A program made the translations under genes and the position numbers. Shown here piece by piece: positions 1-29,757 of a stretch of DNA of 31,081 bases. The number at the start of each line of letters is the position of its first letter. Within the stretch, counting starts at the first letter, position 1. The DNA comes from a virus: IMG/VR virus record IMGVR_UViG_3300013132_005541, positions 1-31,081 of that record; one strand, given 5' to 3'. The notes below the pieces were generated by a model. The model was not told where the DNA came from, did not search any database, and saw nothing but the letters and a program-made list of their open reading frames with translations.

Positions 1-124
1 CCTCAAGAGGATGAGTATATTTTAATGGGAATGTCTTCCTACGGCACAACAGACAAATATTATAATATTTGTCTGTTGTGCCGTAGGAAGACATTCCCAT
101 TAAAATATACTCATCCTCTTGAGG
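1..124. repeat. Perfect 124-bp palindrome at the left edge
   Basis: Bases 1-62 are the exact reverse complement of bases 63-124, with no spacer. Bases 63-124 continue the reading frame and conserved motifs of the carbamoyltransferase gene to their right, so this arm is the authentic one. Bases 1-62 look like a fold-back copy made during amplification or assembly. A real hairpin end is possible but would have to cut a conserved gene in its middle. Confidence 0.95.
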
Positions 125-643
125 CTTGAGCCCGATTAAATCCGTAATAGAAGAGTAAAATAAGCCTAGCGAATCCGGGTATTGCTGTTTGTATATTATT
201 TTATAATTCTTTTCATCCCTAATATCCCAAACAGAGAGTGACAAGAACTCACCTACGGTATCTATAATCACCCCTAGCGTATTTTGTATATTAAAGGGGG
301 CTGTTAATAATGAAGACAATAAGTGTGCTTTATGGTGATCACAGAAGGAAAACCTACAATCTATATTATAATATTCTGAAAATATCCCTTTCACGTCTTT
401 AAAATATAAACGACGATCAAATAAAGCATGTCTTACGAATTTCTTATAAGGGTTCTCATACCATACCAATGTGTCAGGATATCCGTACTCTAAGCAGTCA
501 TTAATAATTTTTATGTTAAAGTTCTTATCGTTTTTTATTCTAGAATATCGCTCGGTAGAGGAAGCAAATTTTATTTCGTTATTCTGAATTACACAAATAG
601 ATGCATCGTGTGAATACCCCGATACTCCCCAGATTGTCTTCAT
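63..643 (-). CDS. Carbamoyltransferase (NodU/CmcH family), N-terminal part only
   Basis: The minus-strand frame opens at the ATG at 643-641 and stays open to the left edge. The translation carries the N-terminal landmarks of the NodU/CmcH O-carbamoyltransferases: a start resembling G-V-S-G-Y-S-H-D-A-S, a T-E-R-Y-S-R segment, a D-H-H-K-A-H motif, L-G-L-F-Y-S followed by I-T-D-L-I-G, and D-E-Y-I-L-M-G-M-S-S-Y-G. Members of this family move a carbamoyl group from carbamoyl phosphate to a hydroxyl on a sugar or natural product. About 190 residues are present, against roughly 550-600 for the family, because the gene runs into the palindrome. Its ATG overlaps the TGA of the upstream gene (ATGA), so the two are probably translationally coupled. 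It would fit a glycan-tailoring role with the adjacent UDP-sugar dehydrogenase and glycosyltransferases. Confidence 0.85.
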
Positions 644-822
644 TTCTTTAAAAGAATGTTTACAAATTTATCTCTAACAGCCACTTGATTACAATTTGCA
701 CAGCCCTTATGTACATCATTAATTTCCTTAAAATATTGTGTTCTAAGTTCTTCGCAACCCTCAATCTCCTCGGGGCAAGGCTTATCTTTATTAAAAAAAG
801 CAAATATTTCAGTTAATGTCAT
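640..822 (-). CDS. Small cysteine-containing protein, unknown
   Basis: This is a 60-residue protein, not recognised with certainty. It has an acidic first half (P-C-P-E-E-I-E-G-C-E-E-L) and a C-terminal half with a C-A-N-C pair followed by V-A-V-R-D-K-F. Four cysteines in 60 residues could bind a metal, but only one C-x-x-C pair is present, so a full zinc ribbon is not shown. Its ATG overlaps the stop of the dehydrogenase gene and its TGA overlaps the ATG of the carbamoyltransferase gene. That tight coupling argues the gene is real and belongs to the same operon. Confidence 0.65.
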   Translation of the reverse strand: MTLTEIFAFFNKDKPCPEEIEGCEELRTQYFKEINDVHKGCANCNQVAVRDKFVNILLKK

Positions 823-1583
823 TTTGACCTATGTATTTTATTAATTTTTCTCATAAATTCAATTAACTTGCTTTTTGTAAATAATTGAAGCTCTAGATTA
901 TCTTTAGTAAAACAATGGCCTCCCCAACCTCTCCTCCCGTCCCTTCCCGGTACAGATGTAAAAGATTTACCAATACGATTGTCTAAAGTTAAGAGATTAA
1001 CCATATCATTAAATTTTGATTTTAGCTTGAGATTTTTATGAATGTCGAAAAGCTCATTAAAAAACGTTACTTTGTAGGCGAGAAAAGCATTTTCTGCATA
1101 CTTAATAAGTGCGGCGGTCTTTATGTCTGTGATGCCTGTTTTTTTAATGCTTGGTATTCTGTCACAAAGTATTTTTTGAATTTTTTTGCAAACTTGTTTT
1201 TTTCCGCCCAATATTATAAAGTCCTGACAATTAAAGTCTCTTATGTTAGAATGGTGTGATAAAAATTCTGGACTATGCACTATAGTAATATTATTATATT
1301 TTTTGCTCATTTGTTCGTATATATGTGGGGGCGCTGTAGATTTACAACATACTACATTTTTAGGTAACAATTTATTTAAATCTTTTAAAACAGTATCTAG
1401 AGTTTTAAATTTATCTTCAATAGGTGTATCAACACAAACAAAAACTAGATCAAATTTATTTTTGCTTACATCATTAATTCTTAAGCGAGTATACTTAGGG
1501 TCAATAATAATTTTTTCGTCTTGCTTAAAGATAGAGGCTACTGCGGAGCCTACGTAACCAAACCCTATAATTAACACCTTCAT
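819..1583 (-). CDS. Short UDP-glucose/GDP-mannose-type dehydrogenase
   Basis: A nucleotide-sugar 6-dehydrogenase homologue, a family that oxidises UDP-glucose or GDP-mannose to the uronic acid with NAD. The Rossmann motif G-F-G-Y-V-G lies at residues 7-12. S-P-E-F-L is at 104-108, K-Y-A-E-N-A-F-L-A at 161-169 (family catalytic Lys161 and Asn165), and G-G-H-C-F-T-K-D at 221-228 holds the catalytic-type Cys224. The usual enzyme is about 390-450 residues. This one stops at 254, after the catalytic cysteine, so the C-terminal nucleotide-sugar-binding domain is missing. The active-site residues being intact suggests a functional reduced enzyme rather than decay, but that is inference. It starts an operon reading left and shares a divergent promoter with the GT8 gene at 1642. 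Confidence 0.85.
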   Translation of the reverse strand: MKVLIIGFGYVGSAVASIFKQDEKIIIDPKYTRLRINDVSKNKFDLVFVCVDTPIEDKFKTLDTVLKDLNKLLPKNVVCCKSTAPPHIYEQMSKKYNNITIVHSPEFLSHHSNIRDFNCQDFIILGGKKQVCKKIQKILCDRIPSIKKTGITDIKTAALIKYAENAFLAYKVTFFNELFDIHKNLKLKSKFNDMVNLLTLDNRIGKSFTSVPGRDGRRGWGGHCFTKDNLELQLFTKSKLIEFMRKINKIHRSK

Positions 1584-1592
1584 AATTATATA

Positions 1593-1636
1593 ATAATATA
1601 ATAATTCTTTGATTAATCAATGTTATACTATAAAAT
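1593..1636. promoter_or_regulatory. Divergent sigma70-like promoters sharing a palindromic -35
   Basis: The 12-bp perfect palindrome TTGATTAATCAA (1609-1620) gives a -35 box TTGATT on each strand. Rightward, a -10 TAAAAT lies at 1631-1636 after 16 bp. Leftward, a -10 TATTAT (1598-1593) also follows after 16 bp. Each serves one of the two genes that diverge here. The ATG at 1642 begins only 5 nt after its -10, which would give a leaderless message. The palindrome could also be an operator. AT-rich DNA makes chance matches easy. Confidence 0.45.
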
Positions 1637-1641
1637 AGTTT

Positions 1642-2421
1642 ATGAAAGTTGCTATATTAGTTGCCCTTAATGATAGGCAAATAATAGGTATGAAAGCGTT
1701 TCTTTGTAGTCTTCTGCACAATAACAGGTGGTTTGACAAAGATATTCTTCTTTTGTCAGACGGTCAACTATCTGCCGAAAGCGTTTTGCTGTTAAAGAAT
1801 ATTTATTCAAATATAAGAATCATCAGGGCGAAAACCCATGATTATTTATTGTGTAAAAAAACTACTCGCGACTGGGGGTTTAATCTTTTTTATAGATTTG
1901 ATCTGTTTGATCTAGGGAAAGAAGGATATGATAGAATAATAATGTTTGATGCAGATATGCTCGTTTTAAAAGATATAAAAGATTTATTTCTACAAACTTG
2001 TGATATAGGGGCTTGTAAGAAATATTTAGGTATTGATGAAATAAAACCTGGTAATATTCTAGCTAGTAGAAAAAAACGATTTAACTGCGGATTAATAACT
2101 GTTTCTAAAACTCTCATGACTCCGAGTATAAAAAAAGCTTTGATTGACATTGCGACAGAAAAATCGTGGTCAAGCGATCAACCAGTTTTAAACAAATACT
2201 TTGAAGAAAGGATTAGCTATTTACCACAAAAATTTAATACCCCTACATCTATATTAACTGAAGAATCTCTTGATATGGTATCCATAGTTCATTTTCATGG
2301 TATGAGTAAGCCTTGGGATAGTGAAGATTATAAAAGCTGCTTTGATCCTTTTGTTTTAGAGCATCTTAACCATGATCTAGCTATCAAACTAAAACAAATG
2401 TTTAATAGCTATATTAAATAA
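1642..2421 (+). CDS. Glycosyltransferase family 8
   Basis: This GT-A-fold glycosyltransferase of 259 residues transfers a sugar from a nucleotide-sugar donor. Evidence is the metal-binding D-x-D motif in I-I-M-F-D-A-D-M-L-V (Asp103 and Asp105), the family segment F-N-C-G-L-I-T-V around 147-154, and the late motif H-F-H-G-M-S-K-P-W at 217-225 that supplies the second metal ligand in GT8 enzymes. It is the only rightward gene in an otherwise leftward island, and its last 8 bp overlap the end of the convergent SGNH gene, leaving no room for a terminator. A second GT8 homologue lies at 3277-4083 on the other strand. Acceptor and donor cannot be told from sequence. Confidence 0.85.
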   Translation: MKVAILVALNDRQIIGMKAFLCSLLHNNRWFDKDILLLSDGQLSAESVLLLKNIYSNIRIIRAKTHDYLLCKKTTRDWGFNLFYRFDLFDLGKEGYDRIIMFDADMLVLKDIKDLFLQTCDIGACKKYLGIDEIKPGNILASRKKRFNCGLITVSKTLMTPSIKKALIDIATEKSWSSDQPVLNKYFEERISYLPQKFNTPTSILTEESLDMVSIVHFHGMSKPWDSEDYKSCFDPFVLEHLNHDLAIKLKQMFNSYIK

Positions 2422-3142
2422 TATTGCGTTTTTTTAATTCCTCAATTAACGTTTCAGCGACCTTTTTATGTGCTTCTGTTTTTAAGTGGCCTTGGGAAGA
2501 AGAGGACCCATATTTTGCAAAACCTCGGTAATGAAAATTAAACATAGTATTTGGTGAAAATAGATCCTTAATTTTACCTACCCTGTGGTGTTCAGCATCA
2601 CCTAAAGTAGAAAAGGCAAGAAATTTGTATTTTCCGTTAAAAAGCACACTATCGGCACACAATCTTAACGCGTCATCGTTAAGATGAAAATAATCTGATG
2701 TAAAATAATAAAGAAGTATACCCTTTACAAATTCTTGCATGAACGGTTGATTGATTAAAGGCTCTATTAACTGTCTATGATCAGCGTTCATTGTAGAGGA
2801 TTTAATTCTACTATGCAGTATAAGTTTCTTTATTAAACACTCGCTTATCCGGTATTCATGATCCTTTACATTAAACATTAATCTATTGGTTTCTGACCAC
2901 CCCAATAGTATTAGGGTTTTCTCTTTATCTATAAAGGGTAAATGCGTCAATAACGTTTCTAAAATCATAATATTGCTTGCTCCAGGTATGGCGAAGTTTT
3001 TATACGTTTTTAATCCTAATGATTCCTGAACGTATTTACCGTAAGCGAAATTGGGATTTTTAGGATTTTGAAAATCTCCATCGGCGACAGTTTCACAACC
3101 GTAACTGTTACTGTCTCCAAAAACAATTAAATCTTCAATCAT
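2414..3142 (-). CDS. SGNH/GDSL hydrolase-like protein
   Basis: A 242-residue protein with the block structure of SGNH hydrolases. Block I is F-G-D-S-N-S-Y-G at 8-15 (nucleophile Ser11), a Gly-containing block II is N-F-A-I-P-G-A-S-N at 49-57, a block-III-like G-W-S-E-T-N-R is at 81-87 (Asn86), and C-terminal histidines His219 and His225 stand where the catalytic His is expected. Related enzymes remove or add acyl groups, often on glycans, so a sugar O-acyl esterase or transferase is a reasonable guess in this glycosyltransferase setting. It overlaps the 37-residue reading frame upstream by 8 bp, which suggests translational coupling. The block V Asp is not obvious, so activity is unproven. 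Confidence 0.65.
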   Translation of the reverse strand: MIEDLIVFGDSNSYGCETVADGDFQNPKNPNFAYGKYVQESLGLKTYKNFAIPGASNIMILETLLTHLPFIDKEKTLILLGWSETNRLMFNVKDHEYRISECLIKKLILHSRIKSSTMNADHRQLIEPLINQPFMQEFVKGILLYYFTSDYFHLNDDALRLCADSVLFNGKYKFLAFSTLGDAEHHRVGKIKDLFSPNTMFNFHYRGFAKYGSSSSQGHLKTEAHKKVAETLIEELKKRNII

Positions 3143-3248
3143 TATCGGTTATTTTATCGTAAATACAATTACCAACCGTCTTAAGATGTCTGTTAAGCTT
3201 CCACTCCAAGTACTTTCTGTAGAAAAACATTTTTATCAATTTAAACAT
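3135..3248 (-). CDS. 37-residue basic mini-protein, unknown
   Basis: A short frame starting at the ATG 3248-3246 and ending with the TGA at 3137-3135. The protein is basic and aromatic-rich, beginning M-F-K-L-I-K-M-F-F-Y-R-K-Y, and could be an amphipathic helix. It ends inside the start of the SGNH gene (ATGATTGA overlap), the same coupling seen between neighbouring genes. It also fills what would otherwise be a 134-bp gap in a very compact operon. There is no recognised family. A late-promoter-like TATAAATA lies 5 bp before its ATG. Confidence 0.45.
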   Translation of the reverse strand: MFKLIKMFFYRKYLEWKLNRHLKTVGNCIYDKITDND

Positions 3249-3253
3249 ATTAA

Positions 3254-3261
3254 TATTTATA
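3254..3261 (-). promoter_or_regulatory. T4-late-like box TATAAATA
   Basis: An exact TATAAATA on the minus strand lies 5 bp upstream of the 37-residue frame and may drive it together with the SGNH gene. T4-type late promoters have this single -10 box. The spacing would place the transcript start almost at the ATG. The surroundings are almost pure A/T, so this may be chance. Confidence 0.3.
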
Positions 3262-3276
3262 ATATAAAAAATATAA

Positions 3277-4083
3277 TCAATATTTTGCCTTGTGGTATAT
3301 ATTTTTTAGGCTAGATATGATAAGTGGCAAACTATATTTGCCATTATTTTCGACAATCTTATCTAGAATATATTTATCAAACTGAGTTTTAGTGGTTTGC
3401 CCCGTCCAAGGCTTATTATGACCGATAAAATGAATATTGGCTGGTGTTTTTAAATTATCTAAAGTTACGACATCAGTACATAAATTAAAAAAATTAGGAA
3501 GTGGGGTAAAGATATTTCCAAAAAATTTATTTAATATAGGCTCATTACCAATCCATTTTCCAGATTTTACTCTAGCTTCACTCTCCGGGGAGGATGTTGC
3601 TAACTGTATAAGATTAAAAAATATATTGAAGTTTAGAATTTTTTTATCTATTAACATAACCCCGGCGCTGAATGCTACAGCATTATCTATTTGAGGTACT
3701 ATATTCTGGGGTCTTATAACTGCACCAAAATCTACACTCTCTTTAAATATGTCCATTACATCGGTCTGAAAAATTATATCGCTGTCAATATATAATATTT
3801 TATCAAATGAACTTAATTTAAATATTTCAAAGCGATATAAACAATTATATTTCCATTTTCTAAAGGTATTATCAAAAATTATTTGCGGGTATTGAGTTTG
3901 ATCTATTTTCCTGAATTGTATATTTGGATATGTTAATAGTAAATCTTTTTTTCTCAAAGACTCTTCCCAATATAAAACAACAACAGGAAGGTTGAATCTT
4001 TTGCTATGTTTTAGTAGGCTAGTTAAAGTTATCTGGGCACCTAATAAAGTGTTGTTATCCACCAACAGAACTACAGCATTCAT
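3277..4083 (-). CDS. Glycosyltransferase family 8 (second copy)
   Basis: This 268-residue GT8-type enzyme has the D-x-D metal motif in I-L-Y-I-D-S-D-I-I-F (Asp100 and Asp102), a central F-S-A-G-V-M-L-I-D segment at 138-146, and the terminal H-F-I-G-H-N-K-P-W at 218-226. It resembles the gene at 1642 in plan (D-x-D near residue 100, H-F-x-G-x-x-K-P-W near 220) but is clearly diverged, so the two probably use different donors or acceptors. Its ATG overlaps the stop of the GT32-like frame upstream (4080-4083), placing both in one operon. Confidence 0.85.
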   Translation of the reverse strand: MNAVVLLVDNNTLLGAQITLTSLLKHSKRFNLPVVVLYWEESLRKKDLLLTYPNIQFRKIDQTQYPQIIFDNTFRKWKYNCLYRFEIFKLSSFDKILYIDSDIIFQTDVMDIFKESVDFGAVIRPQNIVPQIDNAVAFSAGVMLIDKKILNFNIFFNLIQLATSSPESEARVKSGKWIGNEPILNKFFGNIFTPLPNFFNLCTDVVTLDNLKTPANIHFIGHNKPWTGQTTKTQFDKYILDKIVENNGKYSLPLIISSLKNIYHKAKY

Positions 4084-4661
4084 AATAATTCGTTTTTCTT
4101 AAGTAAATTATAAAATAGTGTTGTAGGTAAAGGTGTATCAAAATCCCGTTTAATGGTTAAATCCCATCTGCCGGTTGAAACAGCTTCGTTACACCAATGA
4201 ATAGCGTACTTAGGCATAATCTTGACAGGGAGAAATGCTCCAATTGCTAATAATTTTTTTATATCTTCTATATTATCATCACCAAACCAATCAACAGGAG
4301 CTACAAATTTTTCTAGATTAGCTTTCTTGACATTGTCTCTCAATATTTCTACTGGTAAAACCCATCTGGTATTATTACAGTTAACAACTTTTTCAGTATC
4401 AATAATACATTGATTAATAAAATCACAGTCTTTAGGACATTTCATTATATTACCAACAAGCCCTACCCGCTTGTGCGGTCTAAAAAGATATTCCTGGTCA
4501 TCTATATCAATAAAACTACGTAAACAAGTTACGTCCATGTCACAATACCAACCGCCATGTTTCTTTAAAAGATAATATCTAAAAATATCTGAAAACCCAC
4601 CATAACTTCCTGCTCTACAATCACCACCACCTACATAAGAAAATATTTTATCACTCGACAT
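4080..4661 (-). CDS. GT32-like glycosyltransferase, C-terminal frame of a frameshifted gene
   Basis: This 193-residue frame holds the catalytic core of a sugar transferase with a D-x-D motif (GT32, Gly_transf_sug type). The segment G-G-F-S-D-I-F-R-Y-Y-L-L at 21-32 leads into H-G-G-W-Y-C-D-M-D-V at 35-44, where Asp41 and Asp43 bind the metal and nucleotide-sugar. The ATG used here is not the natural start. Reading back in the same frame gives I-L-R-D-A-N-E-I-M, a segment these enzymes have before the core. The missing N-terminus lies at 4679-4822 in the next frame. As assembled the gene is broken; see the fragment entry for the likely single-base cause. Confidence 0.75.
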   Translation of the reverse strand: MSSDKIFSYVGGGDCRAGSYGGFSDIFRYYLLKKHGGWYCDMDVTCLRSFIDIDDQEYLFRPHKRVGLVGNIMKCPKDCDFINQCIIDTEKVVNCNNTRWVLPVEILRDNVKKANLEKFVAPVDWFGDDNIEDIKKLLAIGAFLPVKIMPKYAIHWCNEAVSTGRWDLTIKRDFDTPLPTTLFYNLLKKNELL

Positions 4662-4678
4662 AATTTCATTTGCATCTC

Positions 4679-4822
4679 TTAATATGGTTTTTCTGGAACA
4701 TTTTGACAGTCTTTATCATATAACCATAGATGAGGCTCGTGCCCGTTTTTTATAAACGACTTTAAAGTAAGCTGTTCAAGCCTACCAAGTTGTTTTCCAA
4801 TCCACAAAAAATTAATATTCAT
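4679..4822 (-). CDS. GT32-like glycosyltransferase, N-terminal fragment
   Basis: A 47-residue frame starts at the ATG 4822-4820 (11-bp overlap with the gene upstream) and stops at 4681-4679. It has the opening strand and helix of GT32-type transferases: N-I-N-F-L-W-I-G-K near the start, then L-E-Q-L-T-L-K-S-F-I-K-N-G-H-E-P and L-W-L-Y-D. One extra base in the T5 run at 4688-4692 (A5 on the coding strand) would turn ...V-P-E-K-P-Y-stop into ...V-P-E-K-T-I-L-R-D-A-N-E-I-M and join this frame to the one at 4080-4661, giving one enzyme of about 247 residues. A homopolymer length error, a natural frameshift and polymerase slippage are all possible. Confidence 0.65.
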   Translation of the reverse strand: MNINFLWIGKQLGRLEQLTLKSFIKNGHEPHLWLYDKDCQNVPEKPY

Positions 4823-5726
4823 CTATTAAAAAGGGCTGAGGTTGTATTATTGCGGGCCACGTAGAGAGAACATCTTCCGTAGTAACACATTTATCTAATA
4901 TAGAAATGTCTAGCCCATCAAGCATTTTTTTATATTCCTTAAATTGATGTATAAAAGAACTTATGTCTTCTTTAGTAAAAATACCACCATAAACAGATTG
5001 TAGCTTTTCAAAGTTTTGAAATTCAAGCTCATATCTTGCAAGTTCAGTAGATAGATTAATTAAGGTAATTTTTGCATGTTTTTTCATTAGATCAAACCAT
5101 GCCTTTTTTAGAGAACAGATAAAGCTTGAATCATTATTTTTTAAAGCACTATTACTAAGACCAAAATATTTTAGTACCGCTAATGGGTGAGCTTCATCAT
5201 CTCTGCATATGTGATATTTTTCTAACACTTCTGTCTTTATTCTTTTAATAAGCTCTTCCCGTGTTATATTTTCTCGTACTGGATAATACCTAATATAGAA
5301 CAAGTCGTTTATAACATCTTCAGAACAATTTTCATATAAGTCGACTTGACTAGTATAAAAACTAATGTAGTTTGAATACTCTGCTGCTATAGCTTTTTTT
5401 ATACTTTCAATATAGCTTGCTTCTTGCAGCAAGAACATTTCACCAAATTTTTGAGTAATTGCGGTTTGTCCAAATATATCTTGATAGTTAGTGCCTTGTG
5501 GTAAGCTTATATAATCAAACCCCAAGACGTCTTTATCTAAGATAAATTCTTTCTCCCTAATTAAATCTACAAAATCACCTTGTATTTGTGTTCCGATTTT
5601 TGTTTTATTAACAAGATCCCGCCCGCAGACTAGCGCCCAGCTAACAGTGCTGCTATTTGTTCTATAGATAATACGCAGTAATATACCTCGGGCTAGCGCC
5701 TTAGCCGCTAAAGCCTTTAAATCCAT
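4812..5726 (-). CDS. Unknown protein with C-terminal L-x-x-W-P motif (possible virion protein)
   Basis: A 304-residue protein without a recognised family. The N-terminal 90 residues are mixed alpha/beta (a run of alanine-rich K-A-L-A-A-K-A-L-A followed by strands), and the remainder looks mostly helical, with long charged stretches. It ends L-S-T-W-P-A-I-I-Q-P-Q-P, closely matching the end L-R-Y-W-P-E-I-L-N-P-A-P of the gene at 10398-11345. It lies between the dioxygenase gene (1-bp gap) and the GT32-like gene (11-bp overlap), so it is part of that operon. A structural or assembly role is only a guess from the late-gene-like shared ending. Confidence 0.6.
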   Translation of the reverse strand: MDLKALAAKALARGILLRIIYRTNSSTVSWALVCGRDLVNKTKIGTQIQGDFVDLIREKEFILDKDVLGFDYISLPQGTNYQDIFGQTAITQKFGEMFLLQEASYIESIKKAIAAEYSNYISFYTSQVDLYENCSEDVINDLFYIRYYPVRENITREELIKRIKTEVLEKYHICRDDEAHPLAVLKYFGLSNSALKNNDSSFICSLKKAWFDLMKKHAKITLINLSTELARYELEFQNFEKLQSVYGGIFTKEDISSFIHQFKEYKKMLDGLDISILDKCVTTEDVLSTWPAIIQPQPFLIDEY

Positions 5727-5727
5727 A

Positions 5728-6609
5728 CTATGGGCGCCAGAAGCGCATTTCTAGTGAAACTCTTGTCTTGTCAGTGTTAAAATTAAACCCTCCACCGTGA
5801 ATAGCATAAGGGGTAAATATCATTGCTTCATTTAACCCAGGGTTTGGGGTAATTAAATCTAAACCGTGTTTAGTCGATACTATAGCGGGGTTAGTGTATT
5901 GTACACCGTCACAATATACTTTTCCAAAAGTTCTTTCTATTTCATTCTCTGGCCATAAATGACTACCGGGTATAATCGGAAGAGAGGACAGCTCATTACT
6001 ACCTGCCAAAGGGAGATAGAGGTTGATAGCCTTTTTACCTTCTGAGTTACCTCTATCAAGATGTACATCTTTATGGGGTAAATTATTATCCTTAAAGCAT
6101 TGAGGCCTTATAACTCTAAGCCAAAAATGTCTCGTTGTATAATAAGATCCATTCTCCATTAAAAATGTTTTAATTGCAGTAACCTCTGTATTACAAATTT
6201 GACTAACCCGTTGTTCAATAAATTCTAATAATACCGGTAATAGTTCAAAAGATAGGCCACCTGTCCCTTCTCCGCCCGCTCTAATATTTTCTATAAAGGC
6301 GAGATGTTGCTCATCGTTTACATATTCATGATATTTTTCTAAAGTGAATCCTTTTGTATCTACACCTAATCCTAGACCGGTAAGTTTATTAGCTATTCCT
6401 TTTGTAGCGGCCTCTCTTATTTTTAGATGGTCCTCTGGGGATAAGAAGGGCTGCACCGTATACCCTTCCTTGACCCACGCAGCTTCACTCCCCGGGGGGT
6501 TATCCCTATTAAACCAAACCTCGTCATTGCCATAAGCAATGTCATCTGCTTCGACTTTAACAGTTCTTACATTATCATTAATCTTAATTGTCGAAATAGC
6601 GGTTTTCAT
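5728..6609 (-). CDS. Fe(II)/2-oxoglutarate dioxygenase, phytanoyl-CoA hydroxylase-like
   Basis: A 293-residue protein of the PhyH-like double-stranded beta-helix oxygenases. Likely metal ligands are the H-x-D of L-P-H-K-D-V-H-L-D-R-G (His179/Asp181, or His183/Asp185) and the distal His271 in Y-A-I-H-G-G-G. Arg283 in T-R-V-S-L-E-M-R-F follows at the position that binds 2-oxoglutarate. The I-I-P-G-S-H-L-W segment at 212-219 is typical of the family. These enzymes hydroxylate small molecules or sugar- and lipid-linked substrates using oxygen and 2-oxoglutarate. The Asp ligand is retained, so it is probably a hydroxylase rather than a non-haem-iron halogenase. It lies in an island with a DegT-like enzyme and a flavin halogenase. 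A promoter-like sequence precedes it. Confidence 0.8.
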   Translation of the reverse strand: MKTAISTIKINDNVRTVKVEADDIAYGNDEVWFNRDNPPGSEAAWVKEGYTVQPFLSPEDHLKIREAATKGIANKLTGLGLGVDTKGFTLEKYHEYVNDEQHLAFIENIRAGGEGTGGLSFELLPVLLEFIEQRVSQICNTEVTAIKTFLMENGSYYTTRHFWLRVIRPQCFKDNNLPHKDVHLDRGNSEGKKAINLYLPLAGSNELSSLPIIPGSHLWPENEIERTFGKVYCDGVQYTNPAIVSTKHGLDLITPNPGLNEAMIFTPYAIHGGGFNFNTDKTRVSLEMRFWRP

Positions 6610-6615
6610 ATATAT

Positions 6616-6642
6616 ATTATACTATCAAACATATAATTTCAA
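6616..6642 (-). promoter_or_regulatory. Putative sigma70-like promoter before the dioxygenase gene
   Basis: On the minus strand TTGAAA (6642-6637) is followed after 15 bp by a consensus TATAAT (6621-6616), 6 bp before the ATG at 6609. The spacer is shorter than the optimum of 17 and the region is very A/T-rich. The -35 overlaps the end of the DegT-like gene. Confidence 0.3.
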
Positions 6643-7262
6643 CCTATTTTAGGGCATTTCTTAAAAAGCGTAAATTCGGTTAAATCCTTGTAGCCTCCAG
6701 GTTCAATTAAATCTTTATTTGTTTGGGGTAAAGTTTTAAGTAAAGATAATCCTTTTTTGGCTAAGACCGGGGCCATATACATATTCCAGCCTAGCTCTCT
6801 AATGTCATCATAATGGTAATCAATATCTGATCTGCCTTCATATCTGGCCCTTCTAAACCACTTTACAGCCTTATTATTATTTGTTAAAATCATCCCACCT
6901 TTGCCTATTTTTAAATGTTTTTTGTGGTGAAATGATAGACACATATAGCTATTATTAATATACATGTTTTTGGTAAATCGTTTTGCACTATCGTATATTG
7001 GATAGGGATATAGCTGATATAACCCCGACCAGTCATTAAATGATTCTTTAAAAACTATTTTACCCCCTGCGTGCATTATTGCTTGCGGTACAGATAAATA
7101 TGTCTTACTCGGAATTACAACTTGTTTTACATTTAAATATTTACAACATAAAAAAATAGCATTTGTACAGCTATCAATCGCTACAGCATACTTTGACCCG
7201 GTATATTTTGCAACCGCTTGTTCAAACATATTAACCACCTCGAAAGGATTATTGTTTTTCAT
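6639..7262 (-). CDS. Short DegT/DnrJ/EryC1-type PLP enzyme
   Basis: Homologue of the sugar aminotransferases that add an amino group to keto-sugars with pyridoxal phosphate. Matching features are F-E-Q-A-V-A-K-Y-T-G-S-K-Y-A-V near residues 13-27, the P-S-K-T-Y-L-S-V region at 51-58, the cofactor Asp in I-Y-D-S-A-K (Asp91), and S-F-H-H-K-K-H-L-K-I-G-K-G-G at 110-123, where Lys115 is the expected Schiff-base lysine. The family is usually about 370 residues. This protein stops at 207, soon after the L-G-W-N-M-Y-M-A-P segment, so the small C-terminal domain is absent and there is no room for it before the next gene. It overlaps the GNAT-like gene by 14 bp. Aminotransfer or a related PLP reaction is likely if the half-size fold works. 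Confidence 0.75.
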   Translation of the reverse strand: MKNNNPFEVVNMFEQAVAKYTGSKYAVAIDSCTNAIFLCCKYLNVKQVVIPSKTYLSVPQAIMHAGGKIVFKESFNDWSGLYQLYPYPIYDSAKRFTKNMYINNSYMCLSFHHKKHLKIGKGGMILTNNNKAVKWFRRARYEGRSDIDYHYDDIRELGWNMYMAPVLAKKGLSLLKTLPQTNKDLIEPGGYKDLTEFTLFKKCPKIG

Positions 7263-7725
7263 ATTTTAAATTTAATTGTATGTTCTCTATTTGTAGAGGT
7301 GAGGGGTGATTTTCTTCTAGCATTTTTGTAAAAGCTACTAAAGCTTTTTGATTTCTTGGATTCAGCTTAATGTGACACTTCTCTATATTTAAGCAATCAA
7401 TATATTGTGTAATTATCGCATAGCTAATTTCAAAATGTTTTCTAGTTATTTTTTTGATATGTTTTTTTATAGAATTAAAATCATAATTGTGGGTTAAAGA
7501 AAAATCTGTATTTAAAGCGACTATTCCAAGCCTAACATTTTTAAGATATATAATTCGAAAATCAATAAATTTAGTTTGTAAATTTTTAACGTGCTCACAA
7601 AAACTAGGTAATTTTTGCGCCCCTACAACTGTATTAGGTAAATTAAATCGTTGCTTAAGTAACCCGTAAGTGTACTGTAAATGGTATTTATTACCTAAGT
7701 CTAATTTTATAAAATTAAGTATCAT
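7249..7725 (-). CDS. GNAT-like acetyltransferase, tentative
   Basis: A 158-residue protein. The pattern resembles a small GNAT acyltransferase: an early helix with L-K-Q-R-F-N-L, a strand pair with I-I-Y-L-K-N-V-R-L-G-I-V-A-L-N, and a late segment L-N-P-R-N-Q-K-A-L-V-A-F-T-K-M that resembles the family's N-x-x-A-x-x-F-Y-x-K-x-G-F. The acetyl-CoA pyrophosphate loop (Q/R-x-x-G-x-G/A) is not clear, so the call is weak. Its position directly before a DegT-type aminotransferase gene is the common arrangement for making N-acylated amino sugars, which supports the idea. The ATG overlaps the stop of the halogenase gene (7722-7725). Confidence 0.4.
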   Translation of the reverse strand: MILNFIKLDLGNKYHLQYTYGLLKQRFNLPNTVVGAQKLPSFCEHVKNLQTKFIDFRIIYLKNVRLGIVALNTDFSLTHNYDFNSIKKHIKKITRKHFEISYAIITQYIDCLNIEKCHIKLNPRNQKALVAFTKMLEENHPSPLQIENIQLNLKYEKQ

Positions 7726-9257
7726 TTTAGGTTGGATAGCGCCTGTTTGATTGTAAGGTTGTTTTTGTTTAAAAATTTATAGTTGGCTACAAGTAGCTTT
7801 GTGTAGTGCTTATATTCAGCAATTTGATCTTGATGTAGTCTTGGAAGCGTGTTAATATATAGCTTATTGTAGCCTACAAGCATACTAGCCCAATTCCACT
7901 GGTTTAATAAAGTTTGCCCTTTGCTTGTCCAATTAATCTTAAACTGTTCATCTATTTTATTACATACTTCCTGTACAGCTGTATTGTTTTGGAATTGCAT
8001 CCAGTAATCATTATCTCTTCTCTCTGTTAACAGGTAATGGTATTTAACAAAATCTTTTGTATTTTCTAAAAATTTAATCATAATTTTATTATGTGCTATA
8101 GACATTTTATTATCCCACCTTTTATGCTTATTATAAATTTTAGAAAATAGCATTGCTGTGACGCAAGTTACCATTATACTTGTAGCTTCTAGCGGCTCTA
8201 TAAAGCTTTGACCTAAGCCGTTGCTAATAATATTTTTACAGGACATTTCTGCGAGTCTGCCTGCATTAAACTTTATGCTTTTAAATGGTTCCCAATTATA
8301 TCCTTTTTTCTTCCATATATTCTTTAATGTTTGTATAGCTTCATCTTCTGAAATAAAGAAATCTGAAAAAACATAACCAGTACCAACTTGTCCAAGCGTA
8401 GGTGTAATCCATACCCATCCTGCATCTTGCGCGATACTTTCAGTAGCAGGCTTGTAAAGTTGTAAGTTTTTAACCGGGCCCCATACAGCAGAGTTATTAG
8501 GGAGACCGGAATATTCTTTCCACTGTGTTAGCGGGCTCATTAACAATCTTTTCATACCAGTACAATCAAAAAATACATCTGCTTCTATTTTTTGACCATT
8601 TGATAATATTATATGCTTAACACCATTTTCATTATATTTTACATTTACTACCGTACCTATAATTTCCTTATATTTGTATGGGGGCGTGTGTTTTTTAAGG
8701 CTTTTGCCAAACTCAAAAGCATTAATATGATAGCTATAACCAGGAAATTCCCCCAGATTTACCTTACCGTTTTTATTATAGGGGCTAAGGTTGTTTTCTA
8801 ATAAAAATTGCTGGCATCCATGAGACCTATTAAACCAATCAATATTATATTTTTTATTATGCTTTCTTTCAGTTAAAAAATACTCTACACTACTAATATC
8901 TTTTTTAAAAGTCTCTTTTCCAAAATGTGTAAGGGATGTACTAAAGCATTGATGCGGAATTAAATCATCAAATGAATGAAACCAGTGTGAACCTTTTTTA
9001 TTAAAATTAATAAAATCTATACCATACTTAAATGTTGCTTTTGCATCCTTCATCCATACTTTTTCATCTATCCCTACAGCATCTGCAACATATTTTACAG
9101 TGGGTGTTGTACTTTCACCAACACCTATAATATCAATTTCATTACTATAAACGATTGTTAGGTCTAAATCGGTAGTTGCGGCTAAATACGCTAGAGTTAT
9201 CCATCCAGCAGAACCACCACCAACTATACAAATTTTAGTTTTTTTGTTTGAGCTCAT
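7722..9257 (-). CDS. Flavin-dependent tryptophan-halogenase family protein
   Basis: A 511-residue enzyme of the PrnA/RebH type, which uses reduced FAD, oxygen and halide to make a hypohalous acid relayed through a lysine. FAD-binding G-G-G-S-A-G-W is at 13-19 and G-V-G-E-S-T-T-P at 45-52. The conserved lysine is Lys77 in A-T-F-K-Y-G-I-D-F, and S-F-I-E-P-L-E-A-T-S lies at 351-360 where the family's catalytic Glu is found. The W-x-W-x-I-P signature appears as W-V-W-I-T-P at 281-286, close but with Thr for Ile. Length fits the family. Marine T4-like phages are known to carry such genes (VirX1 of cyanophage Syn10). Substrate unknown. It needs reduced flavin, and a reductase-like gene lies at 16989. 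Confidence 0.9.
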   Translation of the reverse strand: MSSNKKTKICIVGGGSAGWITLAYLAATTDLDLTIVYSNEIDIIGVGESTTPTVKYVADAVGIDEKVWMKDAKATFKYGIDFINFNKKGSHWFHSFDDLIPHQCFSTSLTHFGKETFKKDISSVEYFLTERKHNKKYNIDWFNRSHGCQQFLLENNLSPYNKNGKVNLGEFPGYSYHINAFEFGKSLKKHTPPYKYKEIIGTVVNVKYNENGVKHIILSNGQKIEADVFFDCTGMKRLLMSPLTQWKEYSGLPNNSAVWGPVKNLQLYKPATESIAQDAGWVWITPTLGQVGTGYVFSDFFISEDEAIQTLKNIWKKKGYNWEPFKSIKFNAGRLAEMSCKNIISNGLGQSFIEPLEATSIMVTCVTAMLFSKIYNKHKRWDNKMSIAHNKIMIKFLENTKDFVKYHYLLTERRDNDYWMQFQNNTAVQEVCNKIDEQFKINWTSKGQTLLNQWNWASMLVGYNKLYINTLPRLHQDQIAEYKHYTKLLVANYKFLNKNNLTIKQALSNLK

Positions 9258-9483
9258 TTAAATATTGACGCTCAATCTTTTGAATATGGTGGCGCTTTTT
9301 AATTTCGTGATATAAAGATAGAACGGTCATAATGCTATATCTAGGAAATAAAGGTGGAAAAAAACTATGAATGTAGCTAGCAAGAGCGCCTAATAACAGT
9401 CTAGTACCGTTAATTAACCCATGTTTACAATGATAAGCATATGTCATGCCACTTTCCACTAAATGATCCTTTGTCGATTGCAT
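9235..9483 (-). CDS. DUF6356-like small protein
   Basis: An 82-residue protein matching the pattern I know for DUF6356: an H-L-x-x-x-G-M-T-Y start (H-L-V-E-S-G-M-T-Y at 7-15), a hydrophobic middle L-L-L-G-A-L-A-S-Y-I-H-S-F-F-P-P at 29-44, and a charged helical end with L-Y-H-E-I. The middle could lie in or on a membrane. Function of the family is unknown. It overlaps the halogenase gene by 23 bp and is probably its translational partner. Confidence 0.6.
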   Translation of the reverse strand: MQSTKDHLVESGMTYAYHCKHGLINGTRLLLGALASYIHSFFPPLFPRYSIMTVLSLYHEIKKRHHIQKIERQYLNELKQKN

Positions 9484-9514
9484 AATAAGATTATAATTTA
9501 TTTATTATATAAAT

Positions 9515-10396
9515 CTATAGATACCAATGGCCATATTTCTTCATTGCAGATATTTTATCTTTTTGCCTTTGTATAGGGTCTGAATGAGAATGATAGTTGT
9601 AATGAACAAGATAGCATGAATCCTTTATTTTATTTCGTAAATAAGGGATTTGCCAAAGACTTCCGTTAGGGAATTTAAACACATCTAAAACTTTTATTTT
9701 AACATCGATTTTGTCGAGAAGTAGTTTGCTATTTGTCATGGTTTGTAAACTACCATCTTGAGTACCTTTAGGAAATTGATTCAAAATATCTTTAGAAAAA
9801 TGTAATTTTAGAAATTGTAAATTTTTAGCTTTACTTGCTCGGGAAAGAAAGAATATAGCTCCATTTTTTGAACCGTACTTTGCTTGTTCCGCTAACCCCC
9901 AATCTGAAACTGTCTTTCTATCGTGGTTTACAGTTACAATACGGTTGTGTTGTCTTTTATGATTATAAGGATCAAATCTCCTATCCGAACACATTATAAT
10001 ATCGTAATCTACTATCTCCTGTTTCAAATAAGGCAAAAAATTCTTGAAAAAATAAATATCAGTATCTAGATGAATTACATTTACGTTGTAATTTTCGTAA
10101 ATATATACGGGGCCTAGGCCTTTAACTGTTTTTGCATTTTCAATCCACTCCGCAGCTGTATCGTTTTTTAAATTTTTATCTAATAAAACAGTATTAATGT
10201 TTAGTTTTTTAAGTTTTTCGTAAGAGAACATATCTAGCGATATTACAAGAACGTGTTGATGTAAATTAATTTTTTCTAAGGAAATATACCAATTTTGACA
10301 CATCTCTACAAATTCTTTTGTTGTGCTTGTTATAATAACATCTTCTTTTTCTTTTAAAAAAAAATCTAGACATTTTTTATCTATATCGCTAAACAT
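9515..10396 (-). CDS. Nucleotide-diphospho-sugar transferase (PF03407-like)
   Basis: A 293-residue GT-A-type transferase. The family's core appears as V-I-H-L-D-T-D-I-Y-F-F-K-N at 107-119, with D-T-D (111-113) as metal site. A central N-G-A-I-F-F-L-S segment, the P-K-G-T-Q-D-G-S-L motif and the C-terminal L-V-H-Y-N-Y-H-S followed by K-I-S-A-M-K-K-Y-G-H-W-Y-L are all typical of the PF03407 (plant RRA/GT77-like) group. It probably adds a sugar to a glycan or to a protein. It lies 1 bp from the gene at 10398 and just downstream of the two tail-fibre genes, so modifying a fibre protein is a possible role, but that is inference. Confidence 0.75.
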   Translation of the reverse strand: MFSDIDKKCLDFFLKEKEDVIITSTTKEFVEMCQNWYISLEKINLHQHVLVISLDMFSYEKLKKLNINTVLLDKNLKNDTAAEWIENAKTVKGLGPVYIYENYNVNVIHLDTDIYFFKNFLPYLKQEIVDYDIIMCSDRRFDPYNHKRQHNRIVTVNHDRKTVSDWGLAEQAKYGSKNGAIFFLSRASKAKNLQFLKLHFSKDILNQFPKGTQDGSLQTMTNSKLLLDKIDVKIKVLDVFKFPNGSLWQIPYLRNKIKDSCYLVHYNYHSHSDPIQRQKDKISAMKKYGHWYL

Positions 10397-10397
10397 A

Positions 10398-11345
10398 TTA
10401 TCTACTACTAAATTCTGGAGGTGCTGGATTTAATATCTCTGGCCAGTATCTTAATATATCTCTAATAGTTTTTTTTGCGAGCAAAATATTTTTTGCCTCT
10501 TCTAAACCTTCGTCAATCTCATTTAATATAATTTTAATCTCTTTCTCCGTATCAGTATCATTGGATTCTAGGGCGATTCTGTATTCCTCTTTTAAAATAT
10601 CAGATGCTTTTTGATGAGTATTAATTATTTTTTCTAACCATTTATTTCTTATCTCATTAACCAGCTGATAATTTTCTGCTTCAGATATAGATAAATCTGC
10701 AAACATTAAGAAAGGTATTTTTAAAAATTTAAAACAACAATTAATCCAATATAAATCATCATCGTAAAGAGTTTCAAAAGGTTGTTTGTTCTTAAAATAA
10801 AAAGCATACAGCTTTTGTCTGATAGTATCAAAATATGAAAGTTTTTTATTGTGTTTAAATTTTGTTTCATAAAAATGAGGATCTCTTAAAAAATATTGCA
10901 AAAGTACAGAATCATCTTTAATATCTGCAACAGTCTCATGTTCCGCTATACTGTAATCAGATGGAGTTAATCCAATTCTTTGATTAATAAATTTTAAAAA
11001 TTTTTCTCTGTAAATTGAAATAATTTTTGTTCGGTTTTTTTCATTAATATCACGGGGGTCTACACCCAAACAACGAGCTAAACTAAATTCTATTTCTCGA
11101 TTAGTTATATCTTCTTTTTTTCTTAATTTTTTGACAATTTTTTGTTCGTGTAAATCTAAACTTACTTCTATTGATTGAAGAGATATTGATTCATCATATC
11201 TTTGGTTATCAATAATACTAGTTATTTGTGAATTGTGTATTTTAATGAAATCAGTTTTATTATCATTAAAGGTTATCTTATAGATAGCGCCTGACGGGTG
11301 GTGTGAAGCTAGTTCTTTTAAATGGTTTATATTAAGAGATATCAT
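10398..11345 (-). CDS. Unknown helical protein with C-terminal L-x-x-W-P motif
   Basis: A 315-residue protein of no recognised family. The first 65 residues form a strand-rich start (I-Y-K-I-T-F-N-D, D-F-I-K-I-H-N-S). The rest is charged and helical, with a possible coiled coil around residues 240-295. The end, I-R-D-I-L-R-Y-W-P-E-I-L-N-P-A-P, matches the end of the 304-residue protein at 4812-5726, and both are of similar size. It lies directly downstream of two fibre genes and upstream of a sugar transferase. It may be a fibre-assembly factor or structural protein, and the paralogy suggests the two proteins do related jobs. Confidence 0.6.
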   Translation of the reverse strand: MISLNINHLKELASHHPSGAIYKITFNDNKTDFIKIHNSQITSIIDNQRYDESISLQSIEVSLDLHEQKIVKKLRKKEDITNREIEFSLARCLGVDPRDINEKNRTKIISIYREKFLKFINQRIGLTPSDYSIAEHETVADIKDDSVLLQYFLRDPHFYETKFKHNKKLSYFDTIRQKLYAFYFKNKQPFETLYDDDLYWINCCFKFLKIPFLMFADLSISEAENYQLVNEIRNKWLEKIINTHQKASDILKEEYRIALESNDTDTEKEIKIILNEIDEGLEEAKNILLAKKTIRDILRYWPEILNPAPPEFSSR

Positions 11346-11376: not shown

Positions 11377-12141
11377 TTATACGTAGGCGGCAGATGTTAT
11401 AGTAGTTGTGTCACTATTACAGCCAAAATTATTCTGTACAAATAGAGAATGGTTAGTATTACCACAAAATACTCGAGCTGACGTCCAATTAGTACCTCCT
11501 GTGTGATAGGGTGTACCGTTAATATAATACGTCAAAGACGACCCGTTGACCCCAGCGTATGAACCAAAGCTCGCTGAGATAGAAAAGTCTGCGCCATAGC
11601 ATTTGTTGCCGCAACCTCCGCCTGGATTACATGCGCGGGGCGGTGGGGTCGAACTATAACCAGTAACGGATGGTTTTGGCGGTGAATAGAGAGTAAAAGA
11701 AGCAGTGGTTAGTGAAACATTGTAATTTGATGCTGGTGTATTAAACCCGTCGTTAAAAGTTATAGAAGCAGTTCTTGATACTGCACTACTGCAACTAGTT
11801 CCCCCCGGGTTGTAGGTGTTTGTGTAAGTTCTAGTGTACCCGCTATTGGTAGAAAGGGTTAAACCTGAAATACTTGCTGGCCATGTAAAATTTTGGGATC
11901 TACTACCAATTCTAGATAAAAATCTTGAACCTGCACTAGTAAAATTTGTTGTAATAGTAACACTAGCCCCGTACGCATAAGCATTAGTATTTGTTGTGGG
12001 TGTTGTAACACCTGTAATGGTGAAGGAAGTTACAGTGATATTGCTACCACTGCCTCCGGCGGCGGTTAAAAGACTTTTTGGAGAAGCGCCAGTTGCTCCT
12101 GCCAGCGCATTTATTGAGAGGTTATCGCCAGTGGAAGGCAT
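11377..12141 (-). CDS. Tail-fibre or adhesin protein, cysteine-containing
   Basis: A 254-residue protein rich in Ser, Thr, Gly and Asn with regular short strands (I-T-V-T-S-F-T-I-T-G-V), as in phage fibre proteins and Ig-like modules. The start M-P-S-T-G-D-N-L-S-I-N-A-L-A-G resembles marine phage virion proteins. Six cysteines lie in the second half (T-S-C-S-S, R-A-C-N-P-G-G-G-C-G-N-K-C, V-F-C-G, F-G-C-N-S), unusual for a phage protein folded in a reducing cytoplasm. They could bind a metal or form late disulphides on the particle. The start is 2 bp after the stop of the S74 fibre gene, so the two genes are co-expressed. Its role in host recognition is inferred. Confidence 0.65.
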   Translation of the reverse strand: MPSTGDNLSINALAGATGASPKSLLTAAGGSGSNITVTSFTITGVTTPTTNTNAYAYGASVTITTNFTSAGSRFLSRIGSRSQNFTWPASISGLTLSTNSGYTRTYTNTYNPGGTSCSSAVSRTASITFNDGFNTPASNYNVSLTTASFTLYSPPKPSVTGYSSTPPPRACNPGGGCGNKCYGADFSISASFGSYAGVNGSSLTYYINGTPYHTGGTNWTSARVFCGNTNHSLFVQNNFGCNSDTTTITSAAYV

Positions 12142-12143
12142 GC

Positions 12144-12884
12144 TTACTTACCTCTATTTTGTGATTCTAATAAATCTACCTTTTTACTTAATTGCTTGAT
12201 AGCTTCAACCAAGAGAGGGACAATCAAGTGATATTGTACTGTTAGATACTTTTTACCAGACTTACTCTCACCATTTTCACCTGTGTCAAAAGGAGCTAAT
12301 TTAATAGCCTCTGGAAGAACAGATTGGACATCTTGGGCGATTAAACCGACTTTTTGATCAGTTTCCGTAAACCCAAATGTTTTAGCTAGCTCATTATGTG
12401 TATAAAGAACTCCTTTAAGGGCGTTTACCTTATCTAAGGCGTGCTCGACTTCACCTTTTACATCCTTTAGTCTACTATCCGAGTAATAAGCTATTACATC
12501 TTGTGTTGCTCTAATATTACCAGTAACATCTAATGTACCAGCATAGCCGCCAGAAGCAAAAATACTACCAGATATAGTCAAATTACCTGCCCAACCTGTA
12601 GTAGCAGATATATTACCTGTAACAGCTAAATTACCATTCCAACCAGTTCCAGATACACTACCAGAAGCAACAAAATTACCTGCATAGCCAGAAGTAGCAT
12701 TTATCGTTCCGTTTATTGTTGCATTACCATTGGTGGTAAGTCCTTTAATATTAATATCGTAAAAATTTGAACCACTATTAAGAGCGTCCCTTAATTGCTT
12801 GGGATTAATACTTGTTACTGTACTTGCTCCTTCTCTTACTTGAGCTAGTGTTGAAAAGTTTACTGAGATTGTTGCTACGGCCAT
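12144..12884 (-). CDS. Tail fibre with S74 intramolecular chaperone domain
   Basis: A 246-residue protein in two parts. Residues 67-126 hold four repeats of about 15-18 residues (G-Y-A-G-N, G-W-N-G-N, G-W-A-G-N and G-Y-A-G-T followed by alternating strands with S-G or T-G), the pattern of a trimeric beta-prism or solenoid. From 135 on is a peptidase S74 chaperone: S-D-S-R-L-K at 135-140 with the autocleavage serine region, V-G-L-I-A-Q-D-V-Q-S-V-L-P-E at 179-192, and a C-terminal coiled coil. Such domains drive fibre trimerisation and then cut themselves off. A TATAAATA box lies 6 bp upstream, indicating late expression. Confidence 0.9.
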   Translation of the reverse strand: MAVATISVNFSTLAQVREGASTVTSINPKQLRDALNSGSNFYDINIKGLTTNGNATINGTINATSGYAGNFVASGSVSGTGWNGNLAVTGNISATTGWAGNLTISGSIFASGGYAGTLDVTGNIRATQDVIAYYSDSRLKDVKGEVEHALDKVNALKGVLYTHNELAKTFGFTETDQKVGLIAQDVQSVLPEAIKLAPFDTGENGESKSGKKYLTVQYHLIVPLLVEAIKQLSKKVDLLESQNRGK

Positions 12885-12890
12885 ATACCA

Positions 12891-12898
12891 TATTTATA
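12891..12898 (-). promoter_or_regulatory. T4-late-like promoter box TATAAATA
   Basis: An exact TATAAATA on the minus strand, 6 bp before the ATG of the S74 fibre gene and just after the TGA of the dCMP deaminase gene. It separates an upstream nucleotide-metabolism segment from the fibre genes, as expected for a late promoter. Confidence 0.5.
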
Positions 12899-29756: not shown

Positions 29757-29757
29757 C

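Follow-up and report, generated by a model that had tools for sequence, protein, structure and literature searches.

The 31 kb stretch of DNA analysed here (31,081 nucleotides; hereafter the window) is a fragment of a T4-like myovirus from an aquatic setting, with matches to a T4-type portal (phrog_213, 1.5e-96) and a T4-type tail sheath stabilizer (phrog_227, 8.7e-17) that bear out its initial annotation as a myophage. One end of the window is occupied by a compact gene island (Table 1). The enzyme block originally placed at positions 63-10396 is real, but it extends to 11345, with orf254 and the S74 gene at its head reaching 12884, and three previously unlisted ORFs (the paralogues orf304 and orf315, and orf60) also belong to it. 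Most island genes abut or overlap on one strand, with gt1 on the opposite strand in the window and in most relatives. Neither sigma-70 promoters nor terminators were found in the window in excess of shuffled sequences, and no assembly-line, carrier or transporter/export gene, nor any epimerase, sugar kinase or nucleotidyltransferase, was seen in the window's block.

Table 1. Features of the island and its fibre-gene edge in the window
Feature	Position	Strand	Evidence or remark
Carbamoyltransferase (NodU/CmcH-type), N-terminal part, off contig end	1..643	-	Carbam_trans_N 6.9e-22, phrog_1601 4.6e-16
orf60, small protein found with ugd in several islands	640..822	-	family in most islands
Mini UDP-sugar dehydrogenase (mini-UGD), 254 aa	819..1583	-	UDPG_MGDP_dh N-terminal and central domains, 1e-13 each
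gt1, family 8 glycosyltransferase	1642..2421	+	Glyco_transf_8 3.5e-17
SGNH/GDSL-like hydrolase or acyltransferase	2414..3142	-	Lipase_GDSL 3.5e-4, below cut-off
gt2, family 8 glycosyltransferase	3277..4083	-	GT8 7.4e-20
gt3, DXD glycosyltransferase, frameshifted	4083..4822	-	Gly_transf_sug 6.4e-9
orf304	4812..5726	-	paralogue of orf315; directly upstream of gt3
PhyH-like 2-oxoglutarate/Fe(II) dioxygenase	5728..6609	-	invariant HxD...H...R
Mini-DegT sugar aminotransferase, 207 aa	6639..7262	-	DegT 5e-22
GNAT-fold N-acyltransferase (predicted)	7249..7725	-	predicted fold
Flavin-dependent (tryptophan-type) halogenase	7722..9257	-	PF04820 (Trp_halogenase) 5.1e-84
DUF6356 protein	9235..9483	-	PF19883 7.1e-9
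gt4, nucleotide-diphospho-sugar transferase	9515..10396	-	PF03407 (Nucleotid_trans) 5.4e-17
orf315, second orf304-family member	10398..11345	-	directly upstream of gt4
orf254, Ser/Thr/Gly-rich, island edge	11377..12141	-	same place in 5 lineages
Tail-fibre-type protein with Peptidase_S74 chaperone domain	12144..12884	-	PF13884 1e-11
T4-late-promoter-like octamer TATAAATA	12891..12898	-	6 nt before S74 start codon

Enzymes of the island

Most of the enzymes in the initial annotation, including the halogenase and the DUF6356-like protein, were confirmed by profiles; the SGNH-like protein is weak, its GDSL match lying below the Pfam cut-off, and the PhyH-like and GNAT-like assignments come through homologues or a predicted fold. 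The carbamoyltransferase has the expected N-terminal domain, but the gene is incomplete, a piece at the contig end with 60% identity to the complete 506-aa gene of relative G014. The adjoining orf60 overlaps each of its neighbours by 4 bp. All four proposed glycosyltransferases were recovered (two GT8, one Gly_transf_sug and one Nucleotid_trans), and gt1 and gt2 are paralogues with 28% identity. The third, gt3, is frameshifted near position 4690 and really reads from 4083 to 4822, as the intact 249-aa protein of a relative covers both frames in tblastn. A further glycosyltransferase pair is inserted elsewhere in the window and is absent at that place in the relatives compared. The orf304/orf315 family, present in two copies in several islands, shows an invariant C-terminal W-P...P; an orf304 model (pLDDT 79) gave no convincing fold match, with generic helical similarity only, and a single-sequence search with orf315 found no homologue in either the reference phages or the viral contigs.

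Pfam also upheld the UDP-sugar dehydrogenase and the DegT-like PLP enzyme, but both fall well short of their solved relatives in length, and the versions in phage relatives are equally short. The mini-UGD retains the N-terminal and central domains, with the catalytic Cys in GWGGHCF, and is without the C-terminal nucleotide-sugar-binding domain, the match stopping near template residue 264 of 393; its complete viral relatives (n = 74) are all 254-294 aa long. The mini-DegT has 207 aa, compared with about 370-390 for full-length DegT. Alignment to 3bn1 places its PLP Lys (K115) and an Asp (D91), both invariant in five homologues; the C-terminal domain is absent. Mini-DegT-type ORFs of 196-236 aa were found at 90 viral and bacterial loci, and at 39 of these a GNAT gene lies directly upstream, in a setting of glycosyltransferases and UDP-GlcNAc 2-epimerase. 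Both mini-enzymes are consistently short forms without the C-terminal domain, each with hundreds of viral relatives, and what is known of full-length enzymes is no safe guide to their substrates.

In the window, the GNAT-like gene overlaps the mini-DegT gene by 14 bp. Its product has no Pfam match, and alignment to phage GNATs with hhalign gave 18% probability (E 0.0013). However, all listed PDB matches of its AlphaFold model (pLDDT 69) are acetyltransferases (best E=1.6e-3, TM about 0.5), so that this modest model points to a GNAT fold. For the PhyH-like protein, the iron triad and the 2OG-binding Arg (H179, D181, H271 and R283) are invariant in six homologues. The window ORF has no Pfam match of its own; a homologue from the same island type matches PhyH (PF05721) below the cut-off (7.5e-4, 20.3 bits against 22), and the ORF itself weakly matches TIGR04324, 'sporadic carbohydrate cluster 2OG-Fe(II) oxygenase'. 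No homologues were found in reference phages.

Profile and motifs (GGGSAG for GxGxxG, catalytic Lys77, GWVWITP for WxWxxP and EPLEATS for EPLE) assign the next gene, on sequence grounds, to the flavin-dependent halogenases. Tryptophan halogenases are closer to it (best 3.5e-57) than VirX1 is (3.2e-37), and among viruses it falls in an aquatic group with 47-75% identity; relatives occur in 65 phage records, and patterns were matched in bacteria, with none confirmed. Flavin-dependent halogenases have been reported in 20 of 153 cyanophage sequences (PMC10452541). The DUF6356 gene overlaps the halogenase gene by 23 bp. An FMN reductase (16989-17591) was considered as a dedicated halogenase reductase and rejected, being 81-94% identical in all portal relatives compared, with or without a halogenase.

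Modular inheritance among related islands

Twelve islands, partly gathered through phyh and ugd matches, were compared, and the Fisher tests on gene co-occurrence treat them as if unrelated by descent. These islands lie at a hypervariable site that follows the S74/orf254 fibre-type genes, and their inheritance is modular. Three contigs share the order orf315-gt4-DUF6356-hal-gnat-degt-phyh-orf304-gt3-gt2-(sgnh or PIG-L)-gt1(-)-ugd/orf60, and gnat, degt and phyh are all present in seven islands and all missing from the other five. Modules keep their order and co-occur completely across contigs with diverged backbones; the recurrence of the same gene order on separate contigs excludes chance. Random, independent presence or absence across relatives, which would have counted against an island, was not what the comparison showed: gain and loss affect whole modules, and a list of auxiliary genes thereby becomes a set of testable modules. 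Several slots are swapped between relatives, involving SGNH, carbamoyltransferase, PIG-L deacetylase (in the SGNH slot of several relatives), Asp-hydroxylase and radical-SAM enzymes, while the glycosyltransferases are the most constant gene class. One relative, G320, has a partial duplicate mini-DegT.

DUF6356 and the halogenase occur together in all three islands having either, and both are absent from the other nine. In G320 the halogenase is distant (33% identity) and DUF6356 is 79% identical, suggesting that the step was kept while the enzyme was exchanged; another relative, G322, retains gt4-gnat-degt-phyh without the pair. From these sequence comparisons, DUF6356 is named as the probable partner of the phage halogenase. 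DUF6356 was also found in 60 of 289 alphaproteobacterial genomes, and none of 20 loci examined there (1.5 kb flanks) carried a halogenase; the pairing is therefore phage-specific, as far as tested. The viral scan with DUF6356 recovered solely its own query loci and gave no independent support, reference phages contained no homologues, and the literature search returned an incidental mention only. The initial view of an island that probably makes a modified glycan stands, but oxidation, amination, acylation, carbamoylation and halogenation do not form one fixed pathway, since the halogenase-DUF6356 pair is optional and several slots are swapped.

At the fibre-gene edge, NATAAATA occupies the octamer position, at a fixed 6 nt before S74, in all islands checked. 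The bare count of TATAAATA is not above chance, and the informative part is this fixed position; lying so near the start codon, the octamer could be a translation signal instead of a late promoter. The FMN reductase and fibre genes are also found in phages without the island enzymes, and proximity alone therefore proves little.

Proposed product and alternatives

With moderate confidence, we regard the block as one allele of a hypervariable, modular glycan-tailoring island following the S74/orf254 fibre-type genes, whose sugars would be placed on the virion or else on the host surface. We infer the reactions, substrate, acceptor and purpose as follows. On the best reading, the island would be late-type and would make an N-acylated amino sugar open to hydroxylation and, as an option, to halogenation. 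In the core module, mini-DegT would aminate a keto-sugar, the GNAT protein would acylate the amine so formed, and hydroxylation of the acylated product would fall to the PhyH-like dioxygenase; in the optional module, the halogenase with DUF6356 would add a halogen. The mini-UGD may convert a sugar to a uronate, the carbamoyltransferase and the SGNH protein (PIG-L in relatives) may provide interchangeable end decorations, and the GT8, DXD and Nucleotid_trans enzymes would assemble the sugars from host nucleotide sugars. The orf304/orf315 proteins, each encoded just upstream of a glycosyltransferase, may carry or present the acceptor, most likely a co-produced virion surface protein (tail fibre or orf254) and next the host surface. 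The purpose would probably be changed adsorption or escape from recognition. Should the island turn out to make an acylated or halogenated glycan of the virion, this would be a new means of surface variation in phages and would offer the many phage halogenases that have no assigned role a substrate class to test. A bolder version, in which mini-DegT and mini-UGD act on protein- or lipid-attached sugars rather than nucleotide sugars and, with a DUF6356-dependent halogenase, yield an N-acylated halogenated virion glycan, appears unlikely.

The alternative to be taken most seriously, although we consider it the less probable, is that the island serves to alter the surface of the infected host (LPS O-antigen or capsule), excluding other phages. 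This has been proposed for P-SSM2- and S-SSM6a-type clusters (PMC7824862), the uronate, amino sugar and GT gene classes are those of O-antigen loci, and phyh weakly resembles TIGR04324; however, neither a flippase nor a polymerase or ligase turned up (in relatives, among the selected genes profiled), and the fibre-linked position and late-type element suit a virion role better than early host takeover. A host-surface target is also compatible with the genes of the island. Direct protein modification, with the halogenase and 2OG oxygenase (in relatives, Asp-hydroxylase and radical-SAM/SPASM) acting on fibre or orf304/orf315 residues and the sugars forming a separate layer, seems quite unlikely. 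The islands of relatives that encode Asp/Asn beta-hydroxylase and radical SAM-SPASM enzymes would fit it, as would the doubled orf304/orf315 genes of several islands and a weak halogenase match to the protein-modifying monooxygenase QhpG, but that match (23.6 bits) is far under the cut-off of 240, mini-DegT, GNAT and UGD are sugar-type enzymes, and an obvious target peptide is absent.

The soluble compound that the initial annotation had left as an option, here a halogenated sugar or amino-acid antibiotic or signal, is improbable: carbamoyltransferases, halogenases and 2OG enzymes do recur in secondary-metabolite clusters, and such a product was proposed for S-SSM6a (PMC7824862), but nothing in the block favours it, given four glycosyltransferases, a dispensable halogenase pair and no carrier-protein, assembly-line or export gene. 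Mosaic gene content, the glycosyltransferase pair inserted only in the window and the duplicated mini-DegT fragment might suggest that auxiliary genes gathered loosely and independently at a recombination hot spot and contribute to no common product; complete module co-occurrence, with order kept across diverged backbones, makes this disfavoured reading highly improbable.

Relation to known phage systems

The general idea of such an island was already published for cyanophages in 2021, while inheritance by modules, the pairing of DUF6356 with the halogenase and the mini-enzymes seem to be new. The S-SSM6a cluster (Iyer et al. 2021, PMC7824862) likewise lies in a T4-like aquatic phage and brings a carbamoyltransferase, a flavin halogenase and a dioxygenase together in a single block that follows long fibre-type genes, but it has two carbamoyltransferases, a cytidylyltransferase and RfaE-type genes. 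Its matches to island families are limited to hal (27%) and cmt, with none to mini-DegT, GNAT, mini-UGD or DUF6356; conversely, no Pfam match to its HemK-like methylase, cupin or HAD phosphatase was found among 15 ORFs of the window, whose contig ends inside the island. The P-SSM2-type cyanophage LPS/sugar clusters share variable sugar-modification genes and several glycosyltransferases with the island, but their epimerases, sugar kinases and nucleotidyltransferases give them the means to make their own activated sugars.

Glycans on phage virion proteins, as proposed here, have a precedent in mycobacteriophages, whose virion glycosylation involves, to our knowledge, no halogenase, amination or uronate chemistry. 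That mycobacteriophage virion proteins are glycan-decorated is attributed in PMC12619734 to Freeman et al. 2023. The window's halogenase has its Pfam family and catalytic residues in common with VirX1 and other phage flavin-dependent halogenases. Aminotransferases of the DegT/PseC/perosamine-synthetase group with a GNAT partner (PseC-PseH or FdtB-FdtC type) resemble the island in their adjacent genes and catalytic Lys and Asp, whereas mini-DegT has about 43 fewer residues ahead of the Lys and lacks the C-terminal domain. A mini-DegT among glycosyltransferases is also found in phages immuto (Flavobacterium) and S-SCSM2R (Synechococcus).

Exchange of the island behind the fibre-type genes

The window, a linear fragment of 31,081 bases, spans its whole IMG/VR record and derives from a T4-like myovirus, as it carries a T4-type portal (phrog_213, E=1.5e-96), a tail sheath stabilizer and fibre genes. 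Relatives of the portal were found at 40 viral contig loci, one of them on a contig of 229,717 bases. Twelve distinct islands, including that of the window, were readable beside the fibre-type gene S74 (and orf254 where present); these are fragments, partly collected via phyh and ugd matches. Across the portal relatives, backbone genes stand in a constant order, while the islands differ in gene content. G005, whose portal is 82% identical, harbors the window's cassette in identical order (gt4 57%, DUF6356 80%, halogenase 75%, gnat 53%, degt 51%, phyh 59%, gt3 65% and ugd 60% identical), yet G002, with a 93% identical portal, harbors a different island lacking the halogenase, mini-DegT, GNAT and PhyH genes. 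The island is thus swapped or lost independently of the backbone. In three other relatives (G006, G007 and G014), the gt4-to-orf304 segment holds a second, full-length DegT and a minus-strand 232-aa gene, an aspartyl/asparaginyl hydroxylase in G007. Further slots hold a PIG-L deacetylase, a methyltransferase, radical SAM-SPASM enzymes or fatty-acid desaturases.

Relatives of the halogenase occur in 65 phage records and are frequent in cyanophages; a halogenase was reported in 20 of 153 cyanophage sequences (PMC10452541). Cyanophage clusters with carbamoyltransferases, a halogenase and 2OG enzymes were described by Iyer et al. (2021), who suggested a role in decorating glycans or in making a secondary metabolite (PMC7824862). 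As the cluster of the S-SSM6a record likewise follows long fibre-type genes, the window block is a variant of a type already described. Our search, with most subscription journals outside it, found no published account of the modular inheritance, the link of DUF6356 with halogenase replacement or the two short-form sugar enzymes.

Coordinates of features in the window and related contigs
Feature	Sequence	Position	Remark
gt3	window	4083-4822	frameshift near 4690 in contig sequence (sequencing error or real lesion)
orf304, orf315	window	4812-5726, 10398-11345	diverged pair in several islands; W-P...P invariant close to C-terminus
mini-DegT	window	6639-7262	207 aa
orf254	window	11377-12141	fibre-type
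S74	window	12144-12884	fibre-type
Second small variable site	window	15104-16896	GT-B-like protein and alpha-1,3-fucosyltransferase (GT10, FucT_N 4e-22)
FMN reductase	window	16989-17591	NADPH-dependent
Tandem paralogues	window	28615-30318	three proteins, 184-196 aa, 32-38% identical
Partial mini-DegT	L285 (G320)	1291-2188	93 aa, 65% identical to window's; adjoins complete copy
DUF6356, third viral lineage	L081 (marine contig)	14800-15015	38% identical; adjoins S74 gene
Desaturases	L051 (G021)	7434-9508	two fatty-acid desaturases in tandem within the equivalent island, adjoining GNAT, PhyH and mini-DegT
Radical SAM-SPASM island	L012; L054 (G002)	17588-18967; 2763-7528	three enzymes and glutamine-amidotransferase/asparagine-synthase-like protein

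Modules within the island

The mini-DegT, GNAT and PhyH genes were all present in seven islands and all missing in five (Fisher 0.0013 per pair, shared descent ignored). Two contigs first pointed to a DUF6356-halogenase pair. G320, the third island with a halogenase, came to light afterwards via ugd relatives rather than by a search for the pair, and there too DUF6356 directly precedes the halogenase. Compared with the window, its halogenase is only 33% identical and its DUF6356 79%, with gt4, gnat, degt, phyh, gt3 and ugd at 47-68%. The gt4-gnat-degt-phyh genes of G322 occur without the pair, and this island represents the empty state of the slot. The partial mini-DegT of G320 is a trace of recombination within the island. 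The L081 contig also carries a halogenase, 5 kb from DUF6356 on the opposite strand.

Gene assignments and short-form sugar enzymes

Most enzymes named in the initial annotation were supported by Pfam: the UDP-sugar dehydrogenase, two GT8 enzymes, DXD glycosyltransferase, nucleotide-diphospho-sugar transferase, DegT, tryptophan halogenase and DUF6356. The carbamoyltransferase also matched, but its gene is partial, and support for the SGNH-like protein was weak. The PhyH-like ORF of the window has no profile match of its own, although HxD...H...R is invariant in six homologues, one matching PF05721 under the cut-off. A predicted model of the GNAT-like protein (pLDDT 69) resembles acetyltransferases, which occur throughout the top PDB matches listed, PseH among them. 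The block was described as compact and overlapping; most genes do overlap or abut. In the window, as in most relatives, gt1 lies on the opposite strand. The gene list omitted orf60 and the paralogues orf304 and orf315, all recurrent in islands. Relatives of gt3 are intact (247-271 aa).

When aligned with perosamine synthetase, the DegT of the window matches in two blocks, with about 43 fewer residues between them, and ends before the C-terminal domain, while the PLP Lys and Asp are kept. A scan of viral sequences gave at least 557 matching loci; among the best 80 of these and 10 loci from bacterial contigs, the ORFs span 196-236 aa, a GNAT ORF lies directly upstream in 39 of 90, and neighbours include glycosyltransferases and UDP-GlcNAc 2-epimerase. 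The copies in bacterial contigs (L092-L101; Balneolaceae, Bacteroidota, Alphaproteobacteria, Prochlorococcus), which may be host genes or phage-derived, share 49-64% identity with that of the window. Two cultured phages, immuto and S-SCSM2R, likewise carry mini-DegT among glycosyltransferases; immuto has a full-length aminotransferase there, and S-SCSM2R has radical SAM and 2OG genes. The UDP-sugar dehydrogenase of the window also lacks its C-terminal domain, and all 74 complete ones measured, among 303 viral relatives, have 254-294 aa. As C-terminal parts were lost in two independent nucleotide-sugar enzymes, we speculate that both may act on attached sugars.

Proposed function and other variable sites

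Judging from enzyme families, the island would tailor glycans and draw its nucleotide sugars from the host. Its recurrent core would be amination, acylation and hydroxylation; halogenation would be an optional addition, and the end groups would differ from island to island. A virion target is favoured because the island lies behind S74/orf254 and a late-promoter-like octamer sits exactly 6 nt ahead of where S74 starts in every island checked; the octamer may instead be a translation signal, a reading that its closeness to the start codon allows. The paralogues orf304 and orf315 may link glycosyltransferase and acceptor, as gt4 is immediately preceded by orf315 in five islands, and gt3 by an orf304-type gene in several; profile and fold searches gave no match for this family.

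The glycosyltransferase pair of the second variable site, between the FMN reductase and o67, occurs in the window only; relatives have nothing there or an unrelated 254-330 aa gene. The FMN reductase, 81-94% identical in portal relatives whether or not a halogenase is present, is a backbone gene. The three tandem paralogues follow a 902-aa fibre protein and are possibly a duplicated adhesin or fibre-tip module.
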